Source: Gyromitra esculenta (Eukaryota > Ascomycota > Pezizomycetes > Pezizales > Discinaceae). Taken from it: DNA of 64,000 nt. The position numbers and the translations under genes were made by a program. This document shows positions 8,012-31,247 of the stretch, piece by piece (the first letter of the stretch is position 1; each line of letters opens with the position of its first letter). The stretch covers positions 62,001 through 126,000 of the forward strand of contig JBCAML010000019.1 in NCBI GenBank assembly GCA_038503075.1, in the 5' to 3' direction. The notes beneath the pieces were generated by a model. That model was not told where the DNA came from and made no database searches. It saw only the letters and a list, made by a program, of their open reading frames with translations.

Positions 8012-8019
8012 CTACAATG

Positions 8020-8217
8020 CATTTCCGTATACCCCACCCTGTGCGTTCACATCTGCTCCCCGGTCCAGCAGCAGCTCCACAACCTCCTTGTTCCCTTTCT
8101 TAGCAGCAGCTTGCAGCGCATTTCCGTATACCCCACCCTGTGCGTTCACATCTGCTCCCCGGTCCAGCAGCAGCTCCACAACCTCCTTGTCCCCCAACCG
8201 AACAGCAGCCTGCAATG
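8020..8217 (-). repeat. Tandem 99-bp ankyrin-coding units
   Basis: Two consecutive 99-bp units (8020-8118 and 8119-8217) are almost identical over the first about 70 bp and encode one 33-residue ankyrin repeat each. A third unit begins at 8218 and diverges after about 45 bp. High internal identity is typical of fungal NLR repeat arrays that undergo unequal exchange. Confidence 0.85.
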
Positions 8218-9952
8218 CATTTCCGTATCGTCCACCCTGTGCGTTCACATCTGCTCCCTTATCAAGCAGTAACTGCACGATTTGGAAACTTCTTGCATGG
8301 CCCAATGGGGTGACACCAGATTCATCTAACGCATCGATGTCGAATCCCATGCTGCAAAGTGACTCGATAGCGTCGATCGACTCCTCTATAACAGCATAAT
8401 GCATTGCTGTAACTTTAATCTTAGATCTTTCGCTTTTTTCCGTTTGTTCCTTCTTGAACCGTTCCAAAGCCAATGGAATATTCAATAGACATGCATTGAG
8501 CAAGGGTAGAAATACCTTGCCATACGGTTTGTTCTGGACCGTCACCTCTGTTGTACTCGAATTCCCCATCGTCATCCTAAATCTAGATGAATATTGAAAT
8601 CGGTGGTTCTTAGTATGGATAAATTGGCATATAAGTTTCCAAGACTCGTTGCTAAAACATTTCACAGCCAGGGCATGTTTCTTCCAATATTTAGTAGCAT
8701 AGCCCACAAATCGTAAATGCGACGTAGGATTTCTGCCGCTGACGCAAAGGACATAAGTCAGGCAATATTGTATAATCGTATCATGTGCGGCTTGTGGCTC
8801 AAGCAGGTACTTGTTAGCTATAGAACCATTTCGTGGGCTATCTGGGTTTACCGCTGTCAAGAGGAATTCCCTCACTGAATAGTGGACAAACTGTAGTGTT
8901 GGCCCAAGATTCCCCCAGGTGCTAGCATTAGGAATAACCTGAACTAAATTGGCACAGCAATTGATAACCATATCCAGATCATTGACCATACGATGGTCAA
9001 TATCCCTGAGATCCGTCATTCCCGGTTCAATGGCAATTGCCTCAGCAATTTGCCTCGCTGTGAGAGGCTTTTCCGCATATGCTATCCAGAAAAGTACTTT
9101 CCGTGCCAAGGCGCGGTTCGCTTTGTTCCCGTCGATACCGGCAATAATTCTTGTGTATACTTGTTCAAGGTTCTCAGGGAGGGCTAACAAAGCTTCCTGT
9201 ATTTCGTAATCAGAACGTTGTTCGCAAATGTGGTCCAACTGAAACCCAACCCATAGAAACCTTGTCAAAGGTTAGCCCCTTCTACTAAACCACCAATAGA
9301 AACCGAATAATGAGATGCCATACATTCCATTTGCCTTGCCTATAAGTGCATCAAAGATCTCCTGCTTTAATCTGGGATCTTTCATTTTCAAGGAACCATC
9401 TTGGAGACGCCGATTTAATTCGAATTCGACATACGAATGGATATCTTTGCTGACTTTGATGGCTTCAATTTGGATTTTTGTGACGTTGGCAAATGCACGT
9501 TGGATATCCTCTTCTCTCCGGCTCGCAACGAAAAGCTTAACCGTAGCATCGCCGGTAACAATCCCCTGAAGAAACGGCAGAAACTCCTTTCGCTTCTTCA
9601 ACTCGCATTCGTCCAGGGCGTCCAAAACCACAAAAACCTTATCAAATCCCTTTGCAACGGCCGAGAATAGGGTTTGAAGTTCCAAAAAAGTAGGGTTTTT
9701 GGCATTCCTGTGGCAAACATCGAAAAATTTCTCGAGTTCGTCGGTCAGGTGTTCCTTCTGTCGTGATAGTTGCTTGATAAAAGTTGCTATCAAAACCGCA
9801 GGCTCATATAATTCGATGTAACTGCAGATGCATGTGCGACTCCAATGTTATCCGATGAGGAAAATTTTTCAAGAAGGGTTTGTGAAACCAGCGAACTAGA
9901 TTTTGTGTTAGATATGCCAACCAACCACTCCCATATATGTACTAAGGTTAAC

Positions 9953-9967
9953 TCACGATAAAATTGT
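9953..9967. repeat. Left target-site duplication of the LINE
   Basis: TCACGATAAAATTGT, identical to 29184-29198. Before insertion this 15-mer was single and lay across an exon/intron junction of the NLR gene. Confidence 0.92.
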
Positions 9968-10091
9968 CGCTCCGTCTGCTCTACACAATTTTTTTCAAAA
10001 AACACCTTCCTATTCGGGACTTACAACCTTCTCGCAAACCTCAAACCTTCCGCAAAACTCTCTAAATCTCAGCTTCATTCTAGCGTTCACG

Positions 10092-10517
10092 ATGTCTGAA
10101 AACACTCTACCCTTCTCGCCCTTCCCTAGTGGAAGGAATTTCTCTGCAACTCCTCTCCTCCAACCTTCTTCTGGTACTCCATCTCGAGTCAACTCTCCTG
10201 TTCGTCCTACTACCCCTACTATCATGTCCTCCAGTGCACTCTCAGAAATGCAAGATATTCTTTGCAAACTCATTGCACAATCACCCATCAATCAAACAAG
10301 CATTGCACCTATTGTCCAAAACCTTGCTCTCGCCGACCCTTCCCGCACAGAAGCAATCTTGATTGCACTTGCTATCAACACCACACACATGATTTCATCC
10401 ATAGATACTAGGATGACCAAACTCGAAGAACTCATTACCCCCTCACAAACGGCTTCACCAAACAACCACCCACAACAGCTTAATCAAATCCAAGCTGTTA
10501 TTACCAACCTTGCCGAC
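10092..10517 (+). pseudogene. LINE ORF1 (gag-like), 5' segment
   Basis: Starts at the ATG at 10092 and runs open through a Ser/Pro-rich N-terminus into a helical stretch until Gypsy-A interrupts it after GCC GAC. The codon phase continues exactly at 18561 once the LTR element and one copy of the CCGAC duplication are removed. This shows one ancestral open frame. It would encode the RNA-binding protein of the LINE particle. Confidence 0.8.
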
Positions 10518-11458
10518 TGTAAGACCGGTACTTCTTACCGCACAAGAAATCTCCAAGAAGCTTTAGATAACAATCTAGACGCTATAACCTGCCCGGTTGC
10601 TATCCGCAACACAATACACAGGCGCAAGTCCTAACTGCTTCTTATGAACCGCTAAAAGATAACCGTAGGGTTCAAAGTAGGGATCGAAAGAAAGTTCCGA
10701 AGAACTTCCAATAGTAAGGTTTTAATAACTAACGCTGAAGGGCCAAGGCCTTGCTAAGCGAGATAAAAGTAATTCACAAAAAGAAGAGAAATTGCACAAG
10801 AATTTTGCTGTAAACAATATAATATCGATAGCGCTCGTTCTTCGTCGCTAACGATCCGACTCCGAGCTTTACATCCACTGCGAGAGTATTTATAATGCCT
10901 CCTCTCTACTATGTTTGGGTATAGTGTGGTGTAGAGGCGCTAACTACTATGACAACATGAAACCACTTCGCCTTATCTCCATACCCGATACCTCATTGAG
11001 TTCCCCGCCCCGATCCGCGATTCTCCGAGCAGTATGCATGTCGGTAACACGGCAGTTACGTATTCGTCTTCATTGCGTTCGTCTCTTCGAGACGATCATT
11101 TCGCCTATCCGAATCGTCGCAGAAGATTGCGTTCCTTATCTTTGTCAGCCGTAACTCCGCCAGTCTTGGTCCCATTCGCAATCCGTTTGAACCACAGCGA
11201 AGCCAGACACTTCCCCTACATACCCTCCGGGTCCCATTCCGCCGGACGGTTTTGCTTGACGGCCTAGGGGTTACTTTTGCCCTCCGGGACAGGTCTTTTC
11301 TGGTGCTGTCCCCCCTTCTCCAAATACTAAACCTACTGGAAGGATTGGAGGCAGGGTAACAGGCGCCAGTCCCGATCCGGAAGGTGCTAAAGTAGGGTAA
11401 CTCCAAAGATAGGGTAACTCCAGGGCCAGGAACTCCTTCAAAAGGTACAGGTATAACA
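10518..11458 (-). repeat. Gypsy-A 3' LTR (left copy), 941 bp
   Basis: On the plus strand it starts TGTAAGACC and ends GTATAACA, giving the usual TG...CA termini. It matches 17622-18555 along its whole length with scattered substitutions and small indels. Confidence 0.93.
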
Positions 11459-11472
11459 GTATCCCCCTCCTG
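11459..11472 (-). other. Gypsy-A polypurine tract
   Basis: Read on the minus strand this is AGGAGGGGGATAC, directly before the 3' LTR. It is in the position expected for the plus-strand primer of reverse transcription. Confidence 0.75.
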
Positions 11473-11668
11473 TGCTAGTCGTCCTCGTCTAACTATAATT
11501 CAAAATAATTAACTAATTACAAAGTGGTACTATAGCATCTTGGGTACGTAAAAACCACCGCGTTTACTTGGCCACGATGGAAAATTTTCCTCAGCCTAGT
11601 TTCTTTTTAGTAGTAAAACATTTTATACATATTCTAAACGCAAAAAAAGAATACAAATGTGAAACAGC

Positions 11669-13029
11669 TTATGGCTTAGGCTGTTGTGGGTAAAGACTGT
11701 GTAATTCGGCAATTGCTTCGGCTGCATTGGCTAATCCTCCTTCGTCGGCAGGTTCCCATGAGGTCTCTTCTTCCGTATCCCACCCATTTGATGAAATAGA
11801 ACATCCGGCTGATCGTTCGTCGTCCCACTTTGGTTTCTCTCGCTTTTGACGATGTATTCCACCTCGTACTCATTGTCACCTTCAATGTCGTCAGACGGCG
11901 GTCGGTCTTGTTTTCGGGTTTCCCTGACGCTTGTCCGGTATGGCTCGAGCAAGGATACATGGAAGGTGGGGAATATCCTCCAGCGACCTCCTGTATCTAA
12001 AGTGCAAGCTCTAGTACCGACTCGTGTAATCGGGAAGGGTCCGTATGACTTAGGGGCTAACTTTTTCGTTGGACGCTTGGTTCTAATGTTTCTGGCGTCG
12101 AGCATTACTAAATCTCCGACCTTAAAGGATGGTTCCGCCTGTCGTTTCTTGTCAAAATATTTGGACATGTTTTCTCGGGTGGCTTTGAGCGAGGTAGTGG
12201 CAAAATCGTTTACTTTCTGAAGCCAATGTGCGTATAACTTTGACGCTGGATTCTTGACTTCGGTATCAATCGTCCAAGCTGTTCTGGGATGGAAACCATG
12301 ATTGGCATAGAAGGGGCTGATTCCAGTGGCTGTGGCTTCGGCATTGTTGTACGCAAACTCCGCTAACGGCAGTAGGTCGTACCAGTCATCTTGGTTGTAG
12401 TTGACGAAGTTTCTTAGGTAGGCTTCCAGGACTTGATTAACCCTTTCGGTTTGTCCGTTGGTCTCAGGATGGAATGCGGTGGATTTGCTGGACTTAATGT
12501 CTAGAAGTTTGCATAATGAGGTCCAGAATTCCCCTGTGAACTTAGCATCTCGGTCTGAAACAATTTCTTTCGGAAGCCTGTGAAGTTTCCAAACTTTGTC
12601 AACAAAAGCCTTTGCCACATCACTTGCTGTAGCTCTTTCTATTAGTGGGATGAAGTGCGCCATCTTGGTAAACCTGTCAACTACTACACATATTTGGGTG
12701 AATCCTCTCGACTCGGGTAACTGGACAATGAAGTCTGTTGATATCGACATCCATGGAGCGTATGGGGTCTCTAGCGGTTGCAGGAGTCCATATTTCTTAT
12801 GATGCAAGGATTTATTATGTTGGCATGGGTCGCATGAGCGGATGTAATCTGTAATCCACTCGATCATATGAGGCCAGTAGAAGTTCCGCTGAACAAGTTC
12901 TGTGGTTTTGTCCATGCCAAAGTGCCCTGCTATCTTGGAGTCATGTTCATTTTCTAAAATGGTAGTTTTGATTTCTTCATCGTTAGGGATTGTTAGCCTG
13001 TTTTTCCAATAGAGGAGTTCCTCCATCAC
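11669..13029 (-). pseudogene. Gypsy-A integrase with chromodomain
   Basis: Integrase part of pol. An HHCC zinc-binding segment is followed by the catalytic triad: D in STDFIVQLPE, D in SDRDAKFT and E in PETNGQTERVN. A GPFPITRVG C-terminal module comes next, then a chromodomain starting EYEVEYIV. The first frame runs 13029-11731. The chromodomain continues only by changing frame twice (FIKWVGYG, then TSWEPADEGG) and ends at the stop at 11669. In the family, the chromodomain steers integration to methylated-histone chromatin. The frame breaks would remove most of it. Confidence 0.85.
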
Positions 13030-13059
13030 TGTGTAGTGTTGTAGCCTTTTGATTTTGCT

Positions 13060-15262
13060 GCCTGCTTTAACTAAGTCTTGAATTTCCTTATAGTCTTAGT
13101 CAGACTCAACCTTCCTTTTAACCTGCTCCAAAAAGTCCGAATTAAATTTAAGGACTTGAAGCGCTTTGAGGGATGCTGATGAAATAAGTAGCTCCTCATG
13201 TGTTGTATTAGGATTAAAATTATAATGGTGATGATTGCCGTTTGAGTCCAGCTCGGTAAAGTGTAACGGGTCATCGTTTTGGTTTTGTACAATTGTGTTA
13301 TCGTCTTTTCTATGAATTAAGGATATAACGATTGACTTACTGGGACGGCCAGTCATATCGACTTGGCCGCTTCGAACATGGCTTCTGTAGGCTGTGTTGT
13401 ATCCTCCTTAGGACGATACTCCGGTCGTCTTGATAATGCATCTGGCTTTCCTCCCGCTGATCCAGGTCGATATATGATTTTAAAGTCGAATGACGATAAA
13501 TATTCCGCCCATCTAGCCTGTCGTCGATTTAGGATCCTTGTCTCCTTCATGAAATATTCGAGATTTTTATGGTCCGTATAGACGATCGCTTGGTGCTTGC
13601 TTCCTTTTAGGTAATGTCGCCATTCGCGAAGGCGGTTACTATCGCGAGTAGTTCTTTAACATCGTGCACCTCGTAGTTAAGTTCGGCTTTATTAAATTTT
13701 CTGGAATGGAATGCTACGGGATGTAGCTTGCTATCGATGATCTGCGAGAGGACGCAACCTAGCGCATAGTACGAGGCGTCGGTTTCTACCACAGTCTGCC
13801 GTTCCGGCGCAAAGTGACAAAGGATAGGTGCTGTCGTGAAGGCAACTTTTAGGTACTCGAAAGCTATCGCTTGACGGTCACCCCATTGGAATTTCTTGGG
13901 GTCGCTTTGGTTAACTCGGTTAAGGGACTTGCGACTTGGGAGAAATTTTCGATGAACCGTCGGTAAAAATTGGCGAATCAATGAATACCTGAACATCGCG
14001 TATCTTTCTTCGGGGTTTCATGAAAGGATTGACTCGACCTTCTTCATTGACATAGACACGCGCTTTGTCAGAAATTATGTACCCTAAAAACTCAACTTCC
14101 CGCAAGTGAAAGTAGCTTTTCTTAATGGATACTGCCAAACCCTCGTCCTCCAACCGCTGCAGGACTCTGGTCACCAAGGCCTCATGTTCATCGAGGGTCT
14201 TTGAGTAGATGAGGATGTCGTCAATATAAACCACGACCCTTGGTCCAGAAATTCGCGGAGCACCTGATGCATCATATCTTGAAAGGTTGCGGGGCGTTTG
14301 CCAAGCCGAAAGGCATGACTGTGTACTCGAAATGACCATATCTTGTACGAAACGCTGTTTTCCACTCATCGCCTTCTTTGATACGGATCTGGTGAAAACC
14401 GTCTTTGAGGTCAGTTTGGTAAAGATCGAAGCCCCATTGACTCTATCACGCAATTCGGACATTAGCGGCAGAGGGTATCGGTTCTTTACTGTCACCTTGT
14501 TCAAGCCACGCTAATCTACGCATAGTCGTAGCCCTCCGTCTGGTTTCGGCGCGAATAATATGGGCGGCCCGGCAGGTGACTTGCTTGGCCGTATCTTCCC
14601 TTCGGCCACCATTTTGTCCAAGTACTTCCGGAGAATCTCAAGTTCTTTTTCCGAAAGTTTATAGATTGGACACGGGCGGTTGTCCCATGCTCGAGATCAA
14701 TAGCGTGATCGAATGGCCTTCGTTCTGGCAAGGATTCCTGGATGGGAGTGCCAAATAGACTGACAAATCGGTGGTATGCTCCCGGGAGAGTCTTCAGAAG
14801 TTCAGTTTCTTCGTCATCGATTGCACGCACCATGCCAATTATTCGGGCATTCTCGTCCAGGCCCAGCCATTCGTCATATTCGATATCGTTCTCGGTATTA
14901 AGAGGAGCAGCCGTCACAGAGCACTGGTTACAGCAACCAGGAGATTCGAACTTCCAGTTTGCGTGGTCGTAAGGGTTTTCCAACCGGTGACTTGTCAACC
15001 ACCAACCCCCTGGCACTATCAAGTCTAACCCAGCCTCGACTGGCCCAATCTTGCAAGATACATTAGATGTATGATTGTTCACAATGAACATAGTAATAGG
15101 GTTAGTAAAGGCTTGTCCCGCTCCAACCACTTCTTCACCTGTGAAGTTTCTAATGGTTAATGGGACGTCTCTTTGCACCTTTGGGACCGACCATTTCCTA
15201 ACAAACAAAGGGGACAAGAGAAAAACATTAGCTCCAGAATCTAGCAATACATTGACCACCAC
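13060..15262 (-). pseudogene. Gypsy-A protease, reverse transcriptase and RNase H, frameshifted
   Basis: Retropepsin-like start with the DSGA active-site motif (NVLLDSGANVFLLS) near 15245. A reverse transcriptase follows, in pieces: [10 protein letters not shown], then VYIDDILIYSK near 14230, then FLGYIISD. RNase H pieces ([48 protein letters not shown]) follow down to about 13360. The frames switch at about 14510, 14240, 13980 and 13610, so no uninterrupted polyprotein can be made. Domain order is normal for Ty3/Gypsy. Confidence 0.85.
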
Positions 15263-15486
15263 CTTCCTTCCATTGATTAACAGTAGCGCTTGCCCTCGGG
15301 GCCGCTCGTATACGGTGGGTTCTGTATGTTGTTTTTTGTTGGACGATTCCGAAGAGTCGTCCTCCTTTCTTTTTCGTTTGTTTTTGTATTTTTCGGTCTC
15401 AAGGATTGAGACAATTCTTTCTTCGATTGCCAGGGTTTCGAATGTTTGGTTAACGTCTGCTACCTCCTGGCCCGCCGGTAGTCGAC

Positions 15487-17247
15487 CTAGTGAAAATTCT
15501 CTGACATTTCTTCGTCAGAATTTGTATTTGCATAGAGATTAACAGGGGTCCTGGAGATCCGCCCCTTTGGAGCGGTAACTCCGCTCACGGCCCCTTTTGC
15601 AGGTGGCGCTGTCGCGGCCCTCGTCTTGGGCGCTAGCTTCAAACGCTTCTCTAATGCATCCCCAGCACCCTGTTCATTCTTTTCGGGCTTGACCCATTTT
15701 CGTTTACGACTGGCGCCGGCTTGCGCAGATGATACCGTTCGAGGTTCCTTCATGTCGCATGTCTTCCAGTGACAGTCGGGCCGACCACACCTAGTGCAGT
15801 GTTTTGCCCGTCTGCGTCGGTCAACTAGGTCCTGACTTACCCCTTCATGAGCAGCCTTCCAACCCGAGGCATCTCCGGTGCTGTTAGTGGGGGGAGGGGC
15901 ATCCTTTTTAGGGGTATCCTCCTTGACATTACTTTTTGAGTCCTTCTTGACTCTGCTTTTGAACCCCTTTTCCCGACGTTCCTCCTGCTTTTTCTCCTCC
16001 TTTTTTCCACGACCATCCGTGGCTGGGAGACCTCTATTCTCCAGTTTCTGGTGATACAAATACTCCTCCCACAACCTTCCTCTTGATCGTAAGGCCTCCA
16101 GCCATTGCACATCATCGTCAAACGGACCACAACCTACCATCAACTCTCGTATCTTGAGAGGGATCTTTGCTTCGACCTTCATCCTCCACAGTGTCCCAGC
16201 CATCCCAACCTTTATATTTAGGTTGCTCATTTTGAGGATATATTCCTCAACGGTTGTGTAAGGTACACGATCCATGGCATATATGGCATCGCGTTTTTCG
16301 TCCGGAGAACAGAATACTTCCTTCATCTTCAGTGAGAAGGTTGCCCAGTAGGCATACTCTGGTTCCTGGATTTGTCCTTCGGCTCCGTCCATCTTGTTGG
16401 TATACATAACAACGTATGGTCGAGCCTTGTTTCCTTCACAGCGGCTGGCGGCATAGTGGATTTTGTGTCGGTCGCTGGTCCAAAGCCACTCGTTCATCTC
16501 AAAATATACTTCGCAGCTTCGGATCCATGCCCTGAGATCCTGGTTTGTGGCAGTGAATTTTTCTGGTTCACCGATCGGGATCTTGTGGTGTCGTGATGAC
16601 GGTGACGCTTGGGGGTACCTGTGATCAATGGTGATTACCATTTCACCAGGGTTATTTGGGGGGGGTGGCGGTGGAGGAGCATTACTTGGTGCCCTCCGCC
16701 GTCGGTTCTCTCTTTCTCTTTTTCTGCTGGCCAGCCATCGATTGGTATCTTCGATGTTCTTCCTGGCCCTTTCTTCCTCCGAATCATCCGATGACGATCC
16801 GTCACCTGATCCAGGGGCGCCAGCACCAACACGGTAATTAGGTCCATGTGGGGGCTGCCCACCATTACCCCGTGTCTTTCCGGAGGGTTCACCTCGTTCA
16901 CTTTGGGCTGGTTCCTTTCCTTTCTCGCTTCTAGTGGGTGGCAGTTGGGGTGCATGAATAGAGCCGCTGAGGCCTGCTTCTGATCGGGCTGGTAGTTCTG
17001 ACTGAGCACGAATATGTTGAGTGATCTGCGAGTAACACTCACGATCGTTAAGCTGACTTCGTTGTCTTTGCATTTCTCCTACTGTTTCCCCCACTATAGC
17101 TTCGACTACCGTTTCCACCCTTCCAATGCGCTGGTGTGCCTCATGTCCTTGCTGTTGCAGGGCCAGGCCAATGTTATTACCAAGACCGTGAACTAGTACC
17201 TCGATACGGGCGAGTTCTTCGGCCGAGAACTCCTGTTGGTCTGCCAT
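15487..17247 (-). CDS. Gypsy-A Gag, 586 aa, intact
   Basis: Structural capsid/nucleocapsid protein. The N-terminal third is helical and then low-complexity (Ser/Glu/Arg/Pro-rich with a run of prolines). A retrotransposon gag domain follows (HKIPIGEPEKFTATNQDLRAW ... EYILKMSNLNIKVG ... IRELMVGC). Near the C-terminus is a Cys/His knuckle of form CTRCGRPDCHWKTC, for RNA binding. The ATG at 17247 begins MADQQEFSAEELARIEVL. It ends just upstream of the protease region in another frame, so Pol was probably expressed by frameshift or as a separate frame. It is the only undamaged gene of this element. Confidence 0.85.
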   Translation of the reverse strand: MADQQEFSAEELARIEVLVHGLGNNIGLALQQQGHEAHQRIGRVETVVEAIVGETVGEMQRQRSQLNDRECYSQITQHIRAQSELPARSEAGLSGSIHAPQLPPTRSEKGKEPAQSERGEPSGKTRGNGGQPPHGPNYRVGAGAPGSGDGSSSDDSEEERARKNIEDTNRWLASRKRERENRRRRAPSNAPPPPPPPNNPGEMVITIDHRYPQASPSSRHHKIPIGEPEKFTATNQDLRAWIRSCEVYFEMNEWLWTSDRHKIHYAASRCEGNKARPYVVMYTNKMDGAEGQIQEPEYAYWATFSLKMKEVFCSPDEKRDAIYAMDRVPYTTVEEYILKMSNLNIKVGMAGTLWRMKVEAKIPLKIRELMVGCGPFDDDVQWLEALRSRGRLWEEYLYHQKLENRGLPATDGRGKKEEKKQEERREKGFKSRVKKDSKSNVKEDTPKKDAPPPTNSTGDASGWKAAHEGVSQDLVDRRRRAKHCTRCGRPDCHWKTCDMKEPRTVSSAQAGASRKRKWVKPEKNEQGAGDALEKRLKLAPKTRAATAPPAKGAVSGVTAPKGRISRTPVNLYANTNSDEEMSENFH

Positions 17248-17621
17248 GCGCTGCTGGATATGGGTTAGGCTTAGATATTGAGTTTGAGCCTGTGAGTTAA
17301 GTTGGTTTAGGGCAACGGTGTTTCCTGCCTGAGCCTCTTCTTGCGCTTAGTACAACGTGTCTGAAGGCTTCGTTTAGCGTAAGCATGAGATTATCACGCT
17401 GTGCATGAACATCCTCAATTTGAGCACTGCTCCGTAGGAATTGCGGATGAGGCGTGAAGTGTTTTGGAATGAAGGGCTTAGGAGCGGGTGTGAGATGGGT
17501 AGTTCTTCGAAGAGTGTCTCGAGATGGGATCCTCAGAACCGTCAGACATGTCTGTATCCATCACAAATACGTCCGCCATTATAGTTGAATAACCAAAGTA
17601 TTGATATGCCTATCAATATAC

Positions 17622-18555: not shown

Positions 18556-18560
18556 CCGAC
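18556..18560. repeat. Gypsy-A target-site duplication, right copy
   Basis: CCGAC, matching 10513-10517 on the other side of the element. Confidence 0.85.
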
Positions 18561-19625: not shown

Positions 19626-19627
19626 TT

Positions 19628-21806
19628 ATGCCTAGAATTCCCCCACCTAAAAATCTTCCTCTCCCTCCATTTAGCGTTGTCCATCATAATTGCGCTAGAA
19701 GTTCAAAAATTTTTCATTCATTATTTTCGTCTTTCAAATCTACGCCTTCAATCGTTGCCATCCAAGATCCATACCTTTGGAACAACAAACCCCTCAAAGC
19801 TCCAGGATACTACCTTCTTATCCCTTCTACTCTCCCCAATCAAAAAATCAGAGTATGCACTTACATATCTATTGATTTCATCAATTCATATCAAGCTAGT
19901 TTTCTAGTCGAAAACTATCCTAGAGACGACATTCTTAATGTTCATCTCACCTTCAAAAACCAATCTTCAATGAGTCAACATATAGCATCAACATCCGAAC
20001 ATCTACAACCGCGCTAGACCCGATTCAGGCGGTCATTTTATTCACCATTCAAAGATCTTTTCAACCGCAATCTTCCCTCTTATAGTAGGTGACTTCAACA
20101 TCCACCATCCCTCCACACCTCTCTACGAAATATCTCCTCCCAAGAATTTAACGAAGGGGAGAAATACCACTCGTCCGCAAACCAATCTTCCTTCAAGTGC
20201 CTCAACACTGCTGGCATATTTACAAGATTTCCATACGACTCCCATTCCAGACCAAGCGTTTTGGATCTTAGCTTCGGCAATTCACACATCCTTCCATTTA
20301 TTAAGAAATGGAACGCTAACCTACCCTCAACCGGCTCGACCATATTCCCATCTGCATCCATCTCTCCACCCCAAAATTTTATACCTCAAAACCCTCTCCA
20401 GACTGGTCTAAAACAGACTGGAAAAAGCTCGCACCCCTCATCAAAGACCTAAAAATCCCCGTTCCTCCACCATCCCCAAATCTCGATGTATGGTTCCACG
20501 ATTCCTTAAACCTTCACCACCCCGCTCACCTCCTGTACCCCCACAAAAAGACCGTCTATATGGTCCAAAAAATGGTGGACACCCCTCTTATCCGAACTTC
20601 GAAGAATATTTCATTCGGTCGACAGTATCTCACAGATCTAAATTTCGTGGGCTAAAAGCACCTCCATCAGAGAAGGTTAAAAAGCCAAATATGCCTATTT
20701 CCACGAAATCGCTCGATGCAAAAAAATCATTGAACTCTTTCCTTTCTTCCGCATCTCCCTGGACATCTGGGCCGCCAAAAGACTCAAACCTCCCAACAAA
20801 TAAGCCTTTCCCAGTCTTCCCAATATCGACTCCCTCACAACTCGCCTCTACCCTCATCGAACATTTCTTTCCTCCAAAAGAAAACCCTCCTGCACCCAAC
20901 TATTTCTCTCACAGCGATTTCATTGAAATTGACTTCGATGAGATTTCAAAAGCTCTCAGCTCTTCCTCCAACTCTTCTGCGCCTGGACCCGATACTATAC
21001 CTTACAGTATCTGGAAAAGAATTAACGCAATCAACCCACAAATTATTCACCAACTACTTAATCCACTAGCACGCTATGGATATCACCCACTTCAACTAAA
21101 AAAAGCCTTCGGCATTGTCCTTCCAAAACCCAACAAAGCATCATACGACTCCCCAGCCTCGTTTAGAGTAATTGTTCTACTCGAAACACTCTCAAAAATC
21201 TTGGAAAGAATCTTTGCTTCACGCCTAACTTTTCTCTCCCCATCAAACGGACTCATTCATCCAAAACCAGTGGTTCCTCTCTCTTATTTCAACCGCAACA
21301 CAGTTTCCGCACTTCTACACGACATTCAACTTCTCCAAGCTGCTGACAAAAAGTCTCTACCCTTTTCCTTGATATTAAAGGAGGTTTTGACAATGTCAAT
21401 CCACATATCCTTAAAAAGAGACTTCTTGATCATAATATACCCCAATATATGACCTCATGGATCATCTCCTTTACACTCGCGCGAACGCGCTCTTCTTTCG
21501 CGCTCACCTCGCTCCTTTTTACCAGTCTCTGTCGAGTTCCCCAAGGCTCCCCCATTTCTCCTCTTCTTTTTGCATCTATGTTGCTCCCCTCCATTTACAA
21601 AATGACTTCAAATTCACATTTTCCTACGTCGACGACTTCGCAATCACGGTCTTCTCGCACTCATCCGTAAGAAACGCCAAACTCCTAAAAAGCCGCACAC
21701 GATATAAACCAAATTGGTCAGAACATCAAAGTCAGCTTCTCTATCCCCAAAACCGAACTTATCCACTGACTACAATCCACAACTGTCTTCCTCCAACTCC
21801 AGGCGC
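19628..21806 (+). pseudogene. LINE ORF2: endonuclease and reverse transcriptase, frameshifted
   Basis: Begins at ATG 19628 with an endonuclease/exonuclease/phosphatase-type domain (FSVVHHNCARSSKIF, SIVAIQDPYLW, and GDFNIHHP in a shifted frame near 20090). The reverse transcriptase follows: SSAPGPDTIPYSIWKRI, FGIVLPKPNK, SFRVIVLLETLSKILERI, DIKGGFDNVNP (shifted), RVPQGSPISPLLF and YVDD at 21625-21636. At least four frame changes prevent full translation. Gypsy-B interrupts it just after the palm domain, at about 21806. Confidence 0.82.
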
Positions 21807-22203
21807 TGTTTCATTGATGGTTGCATGTTGACGGTTAGGTACATGCACACGGTTGTTGGATTTCGTTGTTGTTCTTTGTGTTTCCCTGAGTTTCTCGTTA
21901 CAATGAGTCATGCCTTTGTCATCGAAAGGGTTGGATTGTGGTATATGTCGGGATTTCCCCTCATCTTGTACTTTTCCTTCTTCTTCCTTTAAGAACGTCT
22001 TCTATAGAAACTCTTGTATTTCACGAATACAAACCTCGTTATACCTCATAACCTTACGCTGTCGCCGTCCTCGAGTCTTCTACACTCGAACACTTCGTAG
22101 AGCCTGTGAAATCCCGTAAACACTCTCGCTTAGTTTTCCTTCAAGAAGACTGCTCATCTCGTGATACCTGAGAGCTTGAAGACAAAACCTCGCTCCTTGA
22201 GAT
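21807..22203 (+). repeat. Gypsy-B 5' LTR
   Basis: Matches 27359-27764, sharing for example the stretches GGTTGTTGGATTTCGTTG and CGAGTCTTCTACACTCGAA. The copies differ by small indels. Confidence 0.85.
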
Positions 22204-22479
22204 TACGTTGCTTACAATTTCAGCGGTATACTGTGTACCTTTTCCCACACAAGGCCACGTGTTCAAACCCCTTGAGTCATACTTACTTCATGGGCTTTAC
22301 AACTTGGATTCATCAATCCTTTGTGTGTTTGTTCCCTTGCGCGACATCGCGAAACCTACAGAGACCACCGAGCCTCGCTAGTCCTACCTGAGTGGCTAGA
22401 TTCCGAGTACCTCCGCGTCAATACCATCGCAAGTGTCTGTAACAACGCAGACTAAAGAACAATTGAGAACCTTTAACGC

Positions 22480-23700
22480 CGCCATGAGTAATCCCGCCCC
22501 CGCCCCTGGACTTTCCCAACCTTTGAGAATTTCCAAGCCGCCGCCAACGCCGACCTCGCCTCCGCCTATGAGGAAATCCCCTCACACTACCAACAGCGGG
22601 TGGACAACCTCACCTACGCAGACCTGCAACTTGAGGAAGCCACTCAAGAGAGGAACAACATGACTGCCAGGTTCAATACCTGTCAATCCCAGTTACAGGC
22701 GGCCGAAGCAGAAATCGCCCGCCTCCAAAATGCCGTCCCCACCACCTGCGCCGTCGCCGCCACTCCTCCTGCTCACACCCAAGCGGCTGTTCTGATAAAT
22801 GCCTGACCCAGATAAGTTCAACGGGTCCTCGCGATAAACTCCCGGTTTGTTCCCGCAACTCAGCCAAAGCTCTCGCTAACGCCGACCGCTTCTCCAACAA
22901 AGAACAACATGGTACTATACGCCATCGCCCGTGCGAGCCGCTCTCGAACAAGTTCGCCACTCCGTCCTTCCCGACGAACTACCACCTAACTCCGCCGCCG
23001 ACTTGATCACCGCTTTCTAAACAAACTTCTGCGACTCCCGACCCTCTCGCATCGCCCGCCGCGAACTGCACCAACTCCGACGCGAAAAGCGAGATTTCTC
23101 CGCCTACCTCGCCGACTTTCAACGCATCACGGGCGTCTCAACTACGACGAGTCGGCCAAAACGACGCTCTCGAGTTCGGCACGTGGATGACGAACTAAAA
23201 GAAGCGGTAGTAACTGTCGCCGACTTCCCCACTACCTTCACTTCCCTCTCGCGCCTTCCTCCTCCGCCTGATAACCGAATCCGAGCGAAAGAGAGGAGAA
23301 GAAAACGCTGTCCGCAACACCATGGGACAATTCACCGCCCCTGCCGCCGCCCCCGCCGCCTATACCCCCGCTTCATCCTCCTTCGCCCCTGCGGACTTGT
23401 CCCCACGATCTCTTTTCGGCCGCACCTCCACCTCCCGCCCCGCCCCGAACAACGATATGTTCAAATAAACGGAAGAAAACTGTCCCCCGAAGAGAAATCC
23501 TGGAGACATGCACCAATAATCGCTGTCTGTTCTGCGCGAGAAGGACATATCTTTTCCAACTGCCCTCCGCCTCCAAGCGCCTCGCCATGAGGAGCTGTTA
23601 CCAATGCCGCCGCCGCTCCTCCCGCTCCTTCTGTTTTTCCGCCGCCTCTGCCACCCCGCTTTCCTGCCTTCGATGCAGCAGACTCGCTGAGTCTTTAAAC
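22480..23700 (+). pseudogene. Gypsy-B gag, frameshifted
   Basis: Pieces of a gag protein in several frames: a coiled segment (NMTARFNTCQSQLQAAEAEIARL), PDPDKFNGS near 22800, a basic RREKRDFSAYLADFQ stretch near 23090, and a Cys/His knuckle split by a frame change near 23525 (CLFC, then EGHIFSNC). No full-length Gag can be made. A T-rich, gene-free stretch follows to about 23900, then the protease region in pieces. Confidence 0.7.
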
Positions 23701-24239
23701 TAGTTCAACCGTAGTCCGCCCGCGACCCTGCTCTGTTTCTTTTTCTTCTTTATCAGCGTTTTCTATTTCTGGTTTTTCAGTGTCTGATGTGTGTACATGG
23801 AGTGATAATTTGGATTTTAACACTTTGTAGTTTCATGTAGCCTTTCCCACCAAAATAAAATTATAAAAACACACGCACTTCTTGACACTGAGCCTCGTGA
23901 TTCGCTTTCATTGATGAAAACTTTGTGCGTCACCATTCCCTACCATTATCTCCCTTAAAACCCCTCGCCAATTAAGTCATTGACGGCCGAACAATTGCCT
24001 CGGGAGATATCACCGATCTTTGCCACTTGGAGCTTTCAATTAAACAGCATAACGAAAAGCCCCTTTCTTCGTCACCAAACCAGACACTACCCCTAAGATT
24101 TGGTATCCCGTGACGAACCTCCATGACGTTCACCTACAATTCGCTAACAAAAGCATTGAATTCAATTCTGAGTTCTGCACCACCCACCGCGCCCCAAACA
24201 ACCTATTGTTTCCGTTGCCGCCATTCCACCTCCAGCTAA

Positions 24240-24672
24240 ACTTAACGCCGCCTTTATTGGGGCCGCTAGTTTCCGTACGTCGCTAGGAAAAAGGGTATTC
24301 AGGTCTACTCAATGTCTCTGTATGAAATAAACAAAGTCCTCGATAAGAAAACCACTAAAGAGGAATGGAGACAAAGAATACCCGCCGAGTACCACGAATA
24401 CCTAGACATGTTTGACAAAGAAAAGCCCAAGGACTCCCCCGCCGCTCTTATGATCATCGCATTACCCTCCAAGAAGCGCGAATCACCATTCGGCCCCCTC
24501 TATGGTATGTCACGGATGAACTTCTAGTTCTTAAGTACATCGAAGACAACCTAGAGAAGGCGCTTTATTCGCGCCAGTTCATCTCCTGCCGGTTCCCCCG
24601 TCCTCTTCGCCGCAAAACCTGACGGTTCTCTGCGCCTCGCGCGACTACCGGCGCCTTAATGCTCTTACCGTC
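24240..24672 (+). pseudogene. Gypsy-B pol, protease-to-RT junction, frameshifted
   Basis: Contains a fragment typical of the linker before the reverse transcriptase (RIPAEYHEYLDMFDKEKP, then SPFGPLYGMS), followed by RT N-terminal motifs in shifted frames (near 24545, YIEDNLEKG-type; near 24590, PAGSPVLFAAKPDG-type). Several 1-nt breaks separate it from the long frame downstream. Confidence 0.65.
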
Positions 24673-27354
24673 ATGACCGATACACCTCCCCGCTCGTTAA
24701 AGAAACCCTCGACCGCCTCGCTAAAGCACAGTGGTATTCCAAACTGGACCTTCGAGATGATTTCACCAAATCCGCATCGCAGAAGGAGAGGAATGGAAGA
24801 CCGCCTTGTGACTCGATACGGTCTTTACGAATACATGGTCATGCCTTTCGGCCTCACCAATGCCCCCGGTACCTTCCAGCGCTTTGTCAATGATTCTCTC
24901 CGAGAATACTTGGACCTCTTTTGCACGGCCTATCTCGACGATATTCTTATCTATAGCGATACCCTCGCCGAACATAAAATCCACGTCCGACAAGTCCTCG
25001 ATGCTTTGAAAGCCAACAACATACTTCTCAAACCTGAGAAGTGTGAATTCCATGTCCAATCTATAAAATACCTCGGACTAGTCCTCACACCTGAAGGGAT
25101 CAAAATGGACGAAGAAAAACTCAAAGCCGTACGAGATTGGAACCGCCCAAAATGTATTAAAGATGTTCAGGCCTTCCTCGGTTTTGCAAACTTCTACCGA
25201 CGATTTATCCTGGGGTTCTCTCGTTTAGCGGCACCCCTTACCGCTTTTACAAAAAAAGGTACCGTTTTCGAATGGACAGTCGAAGCAGAACTCGCATTCG
25301 AGGCCCTGAAAGATGCCTTTACTAAGGCCCCCGTCCTCATCCACTTCGACCCCCGAAAGAAAATCTTCGTGGAATCCGATGCTTCTGACTTCGTCTCCGG
25401 CGGTGTCCTATCCCAACTTGACGATAATGGCGTACTTCATCCTGTGGCATTCTTTTCCAAAAAGCACTCACCTGCTGAGTGTAATTACGAAATCTACGAT
25501 AAAGAGTTGCTAGCCATTATCCGTTGCTTTGAAGAATGGCGCCCTGAACTCGAAGGATCTGAATTCCTCATCTCCGTTATCACAGACCATAAAAATTTGG
25601 AGTATTTCATGACCACCAAGCAGCTGAACCGAAGACAAGTCAGATGGGCAGAATACCTTTCGCGTTTCGACTTTGTCATTACGTATAGACCAGGGGTACA
25701 AGGAGGAAAGCCGGACGCATTGACTCGGAGATCAGGAGATCTCCCTGAAGAAGGGGATGAAAGACTACGACACCAACACCAAGTAGTCCTGAAGGAAAAG
25801 AATTTGGACCCTAAGCTGAGTTTGTTTTCGGGTTCTTTACTAAATGAACCCGCTGAATTGGATGCCACCCTTGAGACTCTAATGAAACACGGATATAACG
25901 CTGACCCGTTCCCGCAAAAAATCCTTCTAGCACTTAGGAACGGCGAACGACAATCCAAGGAGATCACCTTAGGCGATTGTACCGAAAGAGATTGCCATCT
26001 CTTCTACCGACAAAGACTCTACATTCCTGATCATGACCCTCTTCGCCTCCTCATCTTGCAACGACACCATGATGCTCCCTCTGCTGGCCACCCAGGACGC
26101 GAAAAAACCTTTGAGCTCATCTCAAGACACTTCTACTGGCCAAAAATGAGGGAATACATCGGACAATATACCCGGAATTGCCATATCTGCCGCCGAGCAA
26201 AACCAAGTACTCTCGGTACTCATGGCGTTCTAAAGCCACTTCCGATTCCCAATCGGCCCTGGGAAGAATTGTCGATGGATTTCGTTACTGGCCTCCCAGA
26301 ATCTAATGGCTTTGATGCCATTATGGTCATCGTGGATCGACTCTCGAAGATGCGGCACCTCGTCCCGTGCAATACTACCATCAACGCCGAACAAACTACC
26401 GAATTGTACCTCCAAAATGTTTGGAAACTCCATGGACTCCCGTCTCATATTACTTCTGATAGAGGGACGCAGTTCACCGCAAAGTTTTGGAAGCACCTCT
26501 GCCAGCGTTTGAATATTGCCGCCCGCATGTCTACCTCCTTCCACCCAGAAACCGATGGACAAACTGAACGACTCAACGCCGTAATGGAGCAGTACCTCCG
26601 CTGTTATGTTTCTTATCAGCAAGATGACTGGTCGAAATGGTTACCCATCGCTGAATTTGCTGCTAATAACCAAGAATCCGCGAGTACTAAGACTACGCCC
26701 TTCTTTGCGAATTATGGCTACCACCCTCGATTCGATACCTTAATTGTTCCTAATGATCGCTCTCCCCAGACCATCGATGCTGACAGCTTCGCTTCCAAGA
26801 TGGAAGAACTCAGAGACTTTCTCCGAGTACAGATGAGGACAGCCCAGGACATCTTCGAATCAAGTACAAATCGACACCGTACTCCCGCTCCAATGTTCAG
26901 GGAAAAAGACGAAGTGTTCGTGTCAATGAAGAACATGAGGACAACACGGAATTCAAGGAAGTTGGATTGGAAATGGAGTGGCCCTTTCCCGGTGAAACGC
27001 GTTATTTCAGCTTATGCCTACGAAATTGATCTCCCAAGATCAATGAAGTATCACCCTGTGTTCCACGTCTCGTTGATCAAAGCAGCTCCCGTCGATCCAC
27101 TCCCCGGTCAGATTATTGCGCCACCCCCACCCGTCCAGGTCAACGACCATGAGGAATACCTTGTTGAGGCTATCCTGATTCCCGTTTACACCGTGGAAAA
27201 CTTCAATACTTGGTTGAGTGGACTGGCTATGCACTACCCACCTGAACCTGCGGATTACCATGAAGAGACGGAAGTCGTAGATTCTTTCCACCAACGATAC
27301 CCTGATAAACCAAGGGAAGGAATGATTAGTGTTCGCAGGAGCTCACGGCCATGA
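24673..27354 (+). CDS. Gypsy-B Pol: RT, RNase H and integrase (893 aa open frame)
   Basis: Long open frame. Roughly the first 43 residues look out of frame relative to the RT family, with a break near 24805. After that it is clean. RT: YGLYEYMVMPFGLTNAP, then YLDD at residues 87-90. RNase [39 protein letters not shown]. Integrase: HHDAPSAGHPGREKT and CHICRR zinc site, then the D (SMDFVTGLPE), D (TSDRGTQFT) and E (TDGQTERLN) catalytic residues. A WKWSGPFPVKRVIS module and a chromodomain-like EEYLVEAIL tail end it. The stop lies only a few bases before the 3' LTR. It is the best-preserved pol in the window but lacks a usable 5' part. Confidence 0.85.
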   Translation: MTDTPPRSLKKPSTASLKHSGIPNWTFEMISPNPHRRRRGMEDRLVTRYGLYEYMVMPFGLTNAPGTFQRFVNDSLREYLDLFCTAYLDDILIYSDTLAEHKIHVRQVLDALKANNILLKPEKCEFHVQSIKYLGLVLTPEGIKMDEEKLKAVRDWNRPKCIKDVQAFLGFANFYRRFILGFSRLAAPLTAFTKKGTVFEWTVEAELAFEALKDAFTKAPVLIHFDPRKKIFVESDASDFVSGGVLSQLDDNGVLHPVAFFSKKHSPAECNYEIYDKELLAIIRCFEEWRPELEGSEFLISVITDHKNLEYFMTTKQLNRRQVRWAEYLSRFDFVITYRPGVQGGKPDALTRRSGDLPEEGDERLRHQHQVVLKEKNLDPKLSLFSGSLLNEPAELDATLETLMKHGYNADPFPQKILLALRNGERQSKEITLGDCTERDCHLFYRQRLYIPDHDPLRLLILQRHHDAPSAGHPGREKTFELISRHFYWPKMREYIGQYTRNCHICRRAKPSTLGTHGVLKPLPIPNRPWEELSMDFVTGLPESNGFDAIMVIVDRLSKMRHLVPCNTTINAEQTTELYLQNVWKLHGLPSHITSDRGTQFTAKFWKHLCQRLNIAARMSTSFHPETDGQTERLNAVMEQYLRCYVSYQQDDWSKWLPIAEFAANNQESASTKTTPFFANYGYHPRFDTLIVPNDRSPQTIDADSFASKMEELRDFLRVQMRTAQDIFESSTNRHRTPAPMFREKDEVFVSMKNMRTTRNSRKLDWKWSGPFPVKRVISAYAYEIDLPRSMKYHPVFHVSLIKAAPVDPLPGQIIAPPPPVQVNDHEEYLVEAILIPVYTVENFNTWLSGLAMHYPPEPADYHEETEVVDSFHQRYPDKPREGMISVRRSSRP

Positions 27355-27358
27355 GCGC

Positions 27359-27764
27359 TACTTTCATGGATGGTTGTTATGTTGATCGGTTAGCACATGG
27401 GTACACGGTTGTTGGATTTCGTTGTTGTTCTTTGTGTTTCCCTGAGTTTCTCGTTACAATGAGTCATGCCTTTGTCATCGAAAGGGTTGGATTGTGGTAT
27501 ATGCGAAGGGATTTCCTCATCTTGTACTTTTCCTTCTTCTTCCTTTAAGAACGTCTTCTATAAAGACACTCTTGTATTTCACGAATACAAACCTGCTATA
27601 CCTCATAACCTTACGCTGTCGCCGTCCTCGAGTCTTCTACACTCGAACACTTCGTAGAGCCTGTGAAATCCCGTAAACACTCTCGTGGCTTAGTTTTCCT
27701 TCAAGAAGCACTGCTCATCTCGGGGATACCTGAGAGCTTGAAGACAAAACCTCGCTCCTTGAGA
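27359..27764 (+). repeat. Gypsy-B 3' LTR
   Basis: Homologous to 21807-22203. It follows the pol stop codon at 27352-27354 almost directly. After its end near GAGA at 27764 the LINE ORF2 resumes. Confidence 0.85.
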
Positions 27765-28970
27765 CGCCGCCATAAATCTAAATGGCCACACCTTCCATCC
27801 TCTAACATGCGTTCGACGATTAGGATTTTGGTTATCCTACAACTTCAACACTAATACACACTTCCTCAAACGTCTCTCCTCGGCCCAAAAAGCCTTTTTC
27901 GCTATCAAATCTCTCTCTCTCTCTGGTTCCGGGTTGACAAGCCTCAATGCCCGCAAACTAGCAATGGGACTTATCAGACCCATCCTTTCATATGGCATGA
28001 ACGTGTTCACACCATCCGCATCAATGCTTTGCAAAATAAACCCCTTTTGGAATAATATCCTTAGATGGATCACCAATTGTTTTTCCTCCACTAATATTGG
28101 TGCCCTTACAAGAGAAGCTTCTCTTCCACCAATGATAGCCTTCGCCCACTACCTAAGAAGACGACATGCTATTCGCATCGCCACCTTACCTACTCTATTC
28201 AACCCCGCCTCAGCTCGCCTTCCCCAGACTTTCAGGCAGACGGCATCCCTTTACCTCTTCTACGAATTCATTTGAAAGGCCTAGGCGCCAAAAGACCCAG
28301 ACCATGGTTCTCTAACGCCAAAAGCCAGGTTCACCCGTTAGTCATTGACTCGCTCGCAAACGAAGCGTGGAAATTCCTCCCGCCAACTACTACCCCGGAG
28401 CTGCAGGCCCTATCCTCGAGAAACCTAACCCAAATCGAGCAATGATAATCGAGGCCAGTAATGCTGCTATCAGTTCCCAACTTATCAAAGATTGGGACTC
28501 ATATACGCTCCGATTACTACCCGTATCTCACCTCAACGCTACCACACCTATTCATGAAATTTTCAAAATTCATGGCAGGTCGCATTCATCAAATGAGAGC
28601 CCATAAAAGCTATCTCAAGGCTCATACATCCTGGTCTCATAATGGCCCTACTCTGTGTCCCCTATGCGGTGACACTCTTCAAAATTTCTCTCACGCTATT
28701 CTACACTGTTTTGCACTGTCATCCGAACGAAATTTATTTATTCCCTTTATAAATTCCTTAGATGCAGACTCTCCAATTTGGAACAATATTTCATTCTTAA
28801 TTGCTCTTGCGAATTTATTTCTAAAACAAGAACAAACTTTCCTTCAATCAAAGAAATTGCTTTATCAAATCTTTCATCTTCCGGCTCATCAGATATTTTA
28901 TCATCTGTTTCTTCTCATTCTACATCATCTCTTTCGTCCTTGTTAAATTTCTTTGATTTAATGGAGGATT
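27765..28970 (+). pseudogene. LINE ORF2 C-terminal part (RT thumb and zinc finger)
   Basis: Resumes the LINE reverse transcriptase with LGFWLSYNFN (in a frame starting near 27822), SAQKAFFAIKSLS, LIRPILSYGMNVFTPS and ALTREASLPP, the thumb/connection region of Tad-type RTs. It ends with an HTSW...CPLCGDTLQNFSHAILHC finger near 28660-28710. Frame changes near 27840, 28270 and 28500 break it. After about 28970 there is only 3' UTR leading to the A-tail at 29175-29183. Confidence 0.78.
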
Positions 28971-29183
28971 AATCTTTTCATGCTAGTTTTGTTTTGTTGG
29001 CATGTGTTTGCCATCTGGAAATACCTGGTTAAGGAAGAACCTTTTTCAGTTTTAAAAAGTTTTGTTTATTTTTAGGAGGGTTGTAGGGATTTAAGGTTTT
29101 GTTCACGCTATAACTTCGGTTGCATGTGGCATTCTTGTACCTTTTATATAAAACAATGAAACAGTGATTTAACAAAAAAAAAA

Positions 29184-29198
29184 TCACGATAAAATTGT
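29184..29198. repeat. Right target-site duplication of the LINE
   Basis: TCACGATAAAATTGT, identical to 9953-9967. On the minus strand it encodes the end of the Walker A exon plus the first bases of its 5' splice site. Confidence 0.92.
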
Positions 29199-31247
29199 TT
29201 TTCCGGCCCCGGCTATGTTAAGATACGTCAGCGTACCATCTTATACAAATTGACCTAGTATAACACTAAAATACAACACATGACATAAACAGCAGGGAGT
29301 ACGGCAGCCTTTGGTTTCAGTCAGGTTAAGGGGTAGTGTGTAGTGGATTCTCAGGGTACAAATACACCAGCAGGCTACCCCCAGATACAGAACAGCGCTA
29401 GTGTCCAGAACTGCCCATATAGCCCTGGGGACAGTATCCTCCCCAACACATCCCAGTTAAATTATCCAGACTTCCAGGAAAGAGAGAAAAATAACTTACG
29501 AGCACCATAACACCACAGCAGACAAGATTCATTGCAATCGCGCCATGTTTCATAATTCCTATCATTTAGCAACCATTCACCAGTACTGCCAAAACGTTTA
29601 GCGAAATGTCGCTGGTGTGTCTCTTCGAAGTCTATCGACGATAGCCACTTGAAAGCTGTACGGCGTTTTTCATCTTTCGGAGTGTCAGCCAACCTAATCC
29701 ACAACTTATTGCTTCCCAAATTAAATACCCCTAAGCCTCGCATCATCAATATCTGCCCTCAGTCGGACCCACTGGCGCTCGGTATTCTCGTCAATCATCC
29801 CCTGAACTTGAGCTGCTTTAAACACCACATTTGCATGACCCGAAAACCTCAGTTGGATCTCGCGAAGGCGTGTTTCGTAAGAGTCCCACGGAGGCCCCCA
29901 AAAGACTTTAAGCGATGCAGATCCTAGGAGAAAAATCAGCTCCCGCGCGTCCCAATACCTCAATTTACTGCGCTTACGAGATTTCTCCCCTTCATCGCCT
30001 GTAAAAATACGCCTCGTTTGAGTACAAAATTCCAGCAAATCACAGTATACTTTCACAAGAGCCTGTATTCCTGTTAAAATCATCTCAAGTGCAGATATTG
30101 GAAGACGAAGAGAGAAGCCCACCCACTATATGCAAGTTGCATATGTGGGCATTCCGTAATTCGCGGCGCGCGCGGCGCTAGCTCGTCTCCAAAATCTCTC
30201 CCATAAAAATTCCATCACAAAATGGGTAAGGCTTAACAAACCTCCTGTACACTCACTGACTTCTGAAACGTAGGTTCAGCGTATCTACATAGATACGACA
30301 AGTGATCTTCTATGTGATCCATCATGTCTGACAGTTTTCGAAAAAATCCAAGGGAATCCAAGGCAAGCTTTCGGAAACCGATATTAGTTGCCATCCAATC
30401 AAAGGATACCTAATATCAATAAAAGCCCGATAACTTACCTGCAAGATGCACTTAAATCCACCCAGAACAAGTGATGAGTATTTTGGGTTAAATTGTAAGC
30501 AAGTATCCAAAACACCCATAAATCGGCTAATTGTATTCAACGCCTTTTCGATGCCCGGCGTAAGTCGTCTTGATGTACTAGTGTTTTTGTGACTTTCATC
30601 GAGAGCCTTCACCCGGCTGATAAGTTCTTGAGGAGATTTGGCAGACTGCTCGTCAAACGCGATTTTTTCCTTCTCGGTCAAACCTGCCGCATACTTTTTT
30701 ATTGCTTCCACAAGCGCAGGGTCGGCGATAAAGCTATTTTAAATTAAGCATAACATTGATTGCCACAAATACCAAGATGGGATAAAAACAAATACCTTCT
30801 TGTTCGGCTATTCTGCTGATGCAGATTTGGGAGAGCTGATGCGACTAAATTACTACTCATCGGAGACTGAAGGCTTTGGCTTGGTCCCGTGGGACTAGGA
30901 GGCCGCAGATTCCCAGCATCGGGGGTGTTCTGAAGCTGGTTTGCCTGTTGATGCAGACTTGGGGGAGCTGACGCGACTAGATTACCACCCACCAGAGACT
31001 GAAGGCTTTGGCTTGGTCCCGTGGGACTAGGAGGTCGCAGATTCCCAGGATTGGGGGGGTTCTGAGGCTGGTTTGCCTGTTGATGTAGACTCGGAGGAGC
31101 AGATGCGGCCACAGACGTGCCACTACCTACACGGGGGGCAAGGGTATTATGTAGTTTTACCGAACTAGAAAGTCTCCTGGAGCCCCGAAAGCAGTTGAAC
31201 TTTTGAAGAATCCCGGAGAGTCGTTGGCGGCGCCCAACAGCCGACAT
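29188..31247 (-). pseudogene. NLR 5' half: N-terminal domain and Walker A microexon
   Basis: Proximal part of the NACHT-ankyrin receptor. Exon 1 is 31247-30796 (ATG at 31247), with a Pro/Ser/Gln-rich 44-residue repeat. Exon 2, 30733-30439, carries an N-terminal domain of the NWD-NACHT type (ADPALVEAIKKYAAGLTEKE ... SLVLGGFKCILQ). Further exons to about 29750 continue it (LSDMMDHIEDHLSYL, YCDLLEFCTQTRR). The exon ending at 29500 has the pre-NACHT signature FKWLSSIDFEETH ... GEWLL. Then 29212-29188, only 25 nt, supplies the GAPGAGKT Walker A. All joins preserve phase except two: near 30410-30440 and near 29715-29750, only 29-35 nt gaps reconcile the frames. It continues at 9895 on the other side of the LINE. 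It may still be transcribed from its own promoter, but would end inside LINE antisense sequence. Confidence 0.85.
30849..31112 (-). repeat. Tandem 132-bp repeat in the NLR N-terminus
   Basis: Two full 44-residue units (residues about 46-89 and 90-133, with SAPPSLHQQANQ and LRPPSPTGPSQSLQS) plus a partial third. The units are very similar at the DNA level and encode a disordered Pro/Gln/Ser-rich linker. Confidence 0.85.

Follow-up and report, generated by a model that had tools for sequence, protein, structure and literature searches.

A probable disruption of an NLR gene of Gyromitra esculenta by a LINE and two nested Ty3-type retrotransposons at the border of a P-loop micro-exon

In the window, a 64-kb stretch of the genome of Gyromitra esculenta, we found two parts of a minus-strand gene on either side of a nested retrotransposon block (Table 1). 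Very probably, these are the halves of a single ankyrin-type NLR (STAND) gene, which was disrupted by a LINE at the border of its P-loop micro-exon and later received two Ty3-type insertions. Judging by its predicted domains, the gene is an NLR with a DUF7708-type N-terminus, a NACHT-like NTPase, a putative winged helix and ankyrin repeats. The killing of an NLR by a transposon is an already known kind of event; the more promising lead here is the P-loop micro-exon.

Table 1. Features of the interrupted gene and of the inserted block (positions in the window)
Feature	Position	Strand	Content or basis
NLR exon 8	8012-9260	-	putative winged helix, ankyrin repeats; ends at TAG within repeat
NLR exon 7	9324-9895	-	NACHT-like NTPase second half, Walker B VFVVLDALDE; NPHP3_N profile 68-164
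Original intron after micro-exon	9896-9956	-	61 nt, GTGAGT...TAG, now severed from micro-exon
Target-site duplication, left copy	9953-9967	+	exact 15-mer at LINE 5' border
LINE 5' part	9968-10517	+	5' start common to sister copies with other flanks
Nested LTR element 1	10518-18555	-	Ty3-like integrase, RNase H, RT; LTRs 10518-11458 and 17622-18555
LINE middle part	18556-21806	+	alignment to L016, L018, L019; many small indels vs relatives
Nested LTR element 2	about 21807-27764	+	LTRs about 21807-22202 and 27359-27764; uninterrupted LINE relatives
LINE 3' part	27765-29183	+	55 matches in host genome; sister 3' ends; 10-A tail 29174-29183
Target-site duplication, right copy	29184-29198	+	micro-exon end plus GTGA of donor
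P-loop (Walker A) micro-exon	29188-29212	-	25 nt, (A)PGAGKTIL(S)
NLR exon 5	29500-29693	-	ends ...LLWCYGA before P-loop; NPHP3_N profile 2-29
NLR exon 4	29773-30062	-	tblastn to P0008 residues 208-273
NLR exon 3	30242-30367	-	tblastn to P0008 residues 167-197
NLR exon 2	30439-30733	-	DUF7708-like N-terminal domain; tblastn to P0008 residues 72-168
NLR exon 1	30796-31247	-	452 nt, ATG at 31247; open frame, GT/AG borders

The right part comprises six exons, from the ATG to the 25-nt exon, which are open when spliced; exon borders were picked from GT/AG sites in the sequence and not from transcripts. The spliced right half exceeded the cut-off of the Pfam profile DUF7708 (E 3.3e-07, score 30.7 vs 25) and stayed below that of the Goodbye profile (21 vs 24.8), and the Walker A motif of the NTPase, PGAGKT, lies within the micro-exon. 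The first-pass annotation had described this side as an N-terminal domain with Walker A, which is what we found. For exon 4 the donor GTGGGT was chosen because it restores the frame; the site may instead hold a frameshift. A frameshift considered at 29730 is explained equally well by a 79-nt GT/AG intron and was left out of the lesion tally. Exon 1 contains an in-frame, proline/serine-rich tandem repeat of 132 nt (30813-31076, 89%) ahead of the N-terminal domain.

The left part was expected to carry Walker B, a winged helix and ankyrin repeats; of these, Walker B and the ankyrin repeats held. The ankyrin repeats are C-terminal (Ank E 9.5e-24), and the winged-helix profile that follows the NTPase (GPIID_WHD) scored 25.3 bits, just under its cut-off of 27, which is exceeded by the homologues P0008 and P0030. 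The NPHP3_N profile is matched over its cut-off on the left side and just under the curated cut-off on the right side. Near 9830-9840 two frames must be joined, with GVAHA in one and CSYIELY in the other, where P0030 carries GVAHIYFNY as a single frame. This points to a probable 1-nt frameshift, which could be an assembly error. Moreover, an in-frame TAG at 8012-8014 interrupts an ankyrin repeat, and some tblastn alignments continue beyond it to about 7931. Together, these two left-half lesions suggest a gene that has become a pseudogene. The ankyrin repeats at 8006-8302 are exactly 99 nt each, with neighbours up to 91% identical, and resemble rapidly reshuffled NLR repeat arrays.

Both halves lie on the minus strand and fit together in phase. 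The left donor GTGAGT is located at 9956-9951, and 61 nt below it, at 9895, the next exon begins in matching phase (codon TC/T). The 25-nt exon, its donor, an intron of about 60 nt and the in-phase exon had been foreseen correctly; the peptide GAPGAGKT had been assigned to the micro-exon in error, its GA belonging to the preceding exon. Scoring in our homologue search was restricted to the 7994 candidates with the most shared words. Of the resulting 87 homologues, 46 match both sides at E <= 1 and 21 at E <= 1e-3; in these 21 the right-side stretch comes first, and the reverse order occurred in 0 of the 87. The other 66 fail the strict test (E <= 1e-3 on each side), in part because the N-termini differ.

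The one-gene claim of the first-pass annotation had been made to depend on a homologue that runs continuously across the join. Such alignments to fungal NACHT-ankyrin proteins were obtained. P0030 from Morchella snyderi, one of the 21, carries the LLWGYG-like ILWGYGIPGAGKTFLSS across the join, and P0008 from Stemphylium lycopersici aligns to the right exons 2-4 and then to the left side. In P0074 and P0079 the exon 5 sequence passes directly into the micro-exon sequence. P0030 and P0008 both share NPHP3_N/NACHT, the putative winged helix and ankyrin repeats with the window gene. The N-terminus of P0030, however, is PigL_N, whereas that of P0008 is DUF7708-like, although the deposited P0008 sequence is missing the stretch ahead of the P-loop. 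A close DNA paralogue of the left half was also sought in the host genome, which gave two short weak matches besides the gene itself and thus no empty-site copy.

The two junctions carry the same 15-mer, as had been noted. TCACGATAAAATTGT occurs twice in the 64-kb window, without a mismatch in either copy, whereas shuffled windows (n=100, up to 2 mismatches) gave a mean of 0.15 matches and no shuffle had two. The copies are 19,216 bp apart, in agreement with the proposed nested block of 19.2 kb, which consists of the LINE and two LTR elements. Both contain ACAATTTTATC/GTGA, the exon/intron border. Because the duplication straddles this border, the micro-exon is whole: all of its 25 letters survive, the insertion point lies between intron positions +4 and +5, and only donor positions +5/+6 are altered, from GTGAGT originally to GTGATT now. 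The insertion is therefore placed at the P-loop exon border as claimed, but it did not split the exon itself.

The outer layer of the block is a LINE, as seen from its A tail, the variable-length duplication at defined ends and a reverse transcriptase without LTRs in a relative. It starts with CGCTCCGTCT at 9968, and the same start stands at the match start in 17 of 30 fetched loci; those without it include some reverse-strand or truncated copies. The 3' terminus is TTTAAC followed by ten A, ending at 29183. The three pieces (550, 3251 and 1419 bp, CCGAC duplicate included) sum to about 5.2 kb, which fits the 5.2-5.3 kb of simple sister copies such as C15:1223176-1228410. Duplications of 14-17 bp were found at seven of eight sister 5'/3' end pairs and none at L043/L025. 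The nearest scored sister copies are 92% identical in the 3' part and 89% in the 5' part. A Pfam scan of some of the window LINE pieces gave no match; RVT_1 is encoded by the intact relative L019. In its features, the element resembles fungal LINEs of the Tad/I type: it has an A tail, two coding regions and duplications of 14-17 bp, and its intact relative encodes RVT_1. Unlike these, the window copy is riddled with small indels.

As each of the LTR elements sits within LINE sequence, the LINE was inserted first. Each is of the Ty3 type, with an LTR pair and the pol order RT, RNase H, integrase. Element 1 has LTRs of 0.94 kb, begins with TG, ends with CA and is flanked by the 5-bp duplication CCGAC (10513-10517 and 18556-18560). 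Element 2 has 0.4-kb LTRs and a Ty3-like pol at 24535-27354 with part of RT, RNase H and integrase; its ends are not fully resolved because the borders share only 3 bp (CGC). A RIP-like skew was sought and not found, the insert having indices like those found elsewhere in the window (TpA/ApT 0.67-0.89). Rfam and tRNA scans of the 64-kb window gave 0 matches each.

Dating by LTR divergence was dropped and no age is given, since indels rival substitutions and gap density is uneven along the LINE. The LTR pair of element 1 differs by 19 indel openings and 47 substitutions in 925 bp and that of element 2 by 13 and 8 in 395 bp, with long identical blocks between the differences. Compared with relatives, gap bases make up about 2% of the LINE middle part and 0.3% of the 3' part. 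Possibly, the indel-rich LTR differences are sequence error in repeats, which may have spoilt the clock, as indels are more numerous than substitutions in one pair and rival them in the other. Transitions in LTR 1 fall mainly at CpG (15 of 26). The indel rate of LTR 1 predicts about 26 frameshifts in coding sequence per lineage, against one seen. Given how old the block appears to be, the halves thus look too well preserved, which counts against the simple story. Sequence error in the transposable elements, their faster decay than that of the gene, or a protected gene could each account for this mismatch, and we cannot choose between them.

The most probable course of events is that a full-length LINE entered the exon/intron border by target-primed reverse transcription, leaving the 15-bp duplication, and that the two Ty3-type elements subsequently entered the LINE. 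Splicing would have been damaged, the 61-nt intron having been stretched to about 19.3 kb (29187-9896) and its donor weakened to GTGATT. Unspliced, the reading from the micro-exon ends immediately (ATT TTA TCG TGA), and the product would be no more than a stub of about 460 N-terminal residues, presumably with loss of function.

Fungal introns are generally short. That the gene is still alive, with a block of three retrotransposons spliced out as a 19.3-kb intron, is very improbable, and the loss of the donor +5 G, the probable frameshift and the TAG at 8012 speak against it as well; still, the border exon letters and GTGA of the donor are all kept, the right half is open once spliced and the lesions are fewer than the LTR clock predicts. 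Another reading is that the NLR was already dead from its frameshift and stop when the LINE arrived, so that the insertion was harmless. The left-half lesions are independent of the insertion, and a single copy cannot show the order. However, a coding sequence of about 3.2 kb with so few lesions suggests a gene that long stayed intact or nearly intact, and we regard a prior death as unlikely, though worth keeping in mind.

The first-pass annotation had also raised a segregating allele. In the one assembly at hand, presence and absence alleles under balancing selection seem quite improbable to us. NLR-type het genes are often polymorphic, and the available text of PMC1805685 and PMC9262711 agrees with this; on the other hand, the two mapped incompatibility genes of M. 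importuna are reported as non-NLR in the accessible part of PMC8940278. We do not favour this reading because the LTR elements entered the LINE after its insertion, identity to the scored sister LINEs peaks at 89-92%, and the left half carries additional lesions. As for two unrelated adjacent NLR fragments with a chance 15-mer, a genome with 40 NLR-like matches offers material for it, but the exact duplication at both LINE ends, the fit of phase and of micro-exon with donor, and the collinear homologues make it scarcely credible. The disruption of one NLR gene by the LINE would make this a well-resolved case from the Morchella group in which nested retrotransposition removed an NLR; the genes controlling self/non-self recognition in that group are described as largely unsettled in the text available of PMC8940278. 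The RPB2 sequence of the host assembly shows 97% identity to Morchella sextelata and 95% to Tuber species across 890 residues, which puts the host in or close to the Morchellaceae.

The micro-exon is not peculiar to this gene. A search of the host assembly (47.1 Mb, 23 contigs) with the 98-aa exon-5 frame gave 40 loci at E <= 0.01. Walker A stands in the exact form AG, 25 nt, GT in 34 of these NLR-like loci (the window gene, L006-L014, L061-L068, L070, L071, L073-L075, L077, L078, L080 and L082-L089) and in 0 of 40 on the opposite strand. Other lengths were rarer in the same scan: 32 nt fits 6 loci, and 29 nt fits 16, in which another GT stands 4 nt further along, the pattern of GTNNGT donors. 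Among the six exceptions, L060 lacks the AG and L069 and L072 the GT, no exon of this kind could be fitted to L076 and L079, and no P-loop was seen in L081. In ten loci inspected, the exon end ahead of the P-loop has the same position and phase. Our literature search, which covered few subscription papers, found no paper on an NLR P-loop micro-exon.

The G....GK[ST] motif is present in 44 of the 87 homologues and absent in 43, some of the latter being fragments or non-NLRs. The deposited NACHT-ankyrin proteins P0001, P0005, P0006 and P0008 are without it, and perhaps these are gene models that miss the micro-exon. As gene finders can miss such an exon, counting NLRs by Walker A may give too few. 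Since 25 is not divisible by three, skipping the exon or retaining either intron would abolish nucleotide binding and truncate the receptor. Splicing of an obligate micro-exon might thus act as a family-wide on/off switch or as an expression brake on cell-death receptors, a speculative idea that we hold to be rather doubtful. If it were true, the LINE insertion would be a natural, permanent 'off' at the micro-exon. With the micro-exon, splicing control of immune-type receptors becomes a testable proposition.

Related cases have been described in other fungi. NWDp-3 of Podospora anserina is, in the available text of PMC1805685, a NACHT-family pseudogene next to a transposon relic, and in the view of its authors the gene was broken up into segments that now lie far apart. 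There the split came via inversion of a 60-kb fragment, whereas the halves of the window gene keep the same orientation around a LINE and its duplication. Tuber melanosporum, of the same fungal class, likewise has NACHT-ankyrin genes with very small exons; as far as the accessible parts of PMC9815663 and PMC4986451 describe them, these are 3-bp mini-exons, a source of diversity in the C-terminal recognition domain, in contrast to the one 25-nt P-loop exon of our host. In Trichoderma, micro-exon inclusion in Xlr2 decides whether a key domain is made (PMC11121469, available text). Xlr2, however, is a transcription factor whose switching was shown experimentally, whereas a switch in the host NLRs is hypothetical.

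In the neighbourhood, a 340-aa open frame with H-type lectin domains (32673-33695, plus strand, E 2.8e-58) adjoins the NLR start on the opposite strand. Further away, the minus strand holds pieces of an MFS transporter (37848-39216) and a fungal-specific transcription factor domain (46167-47399).
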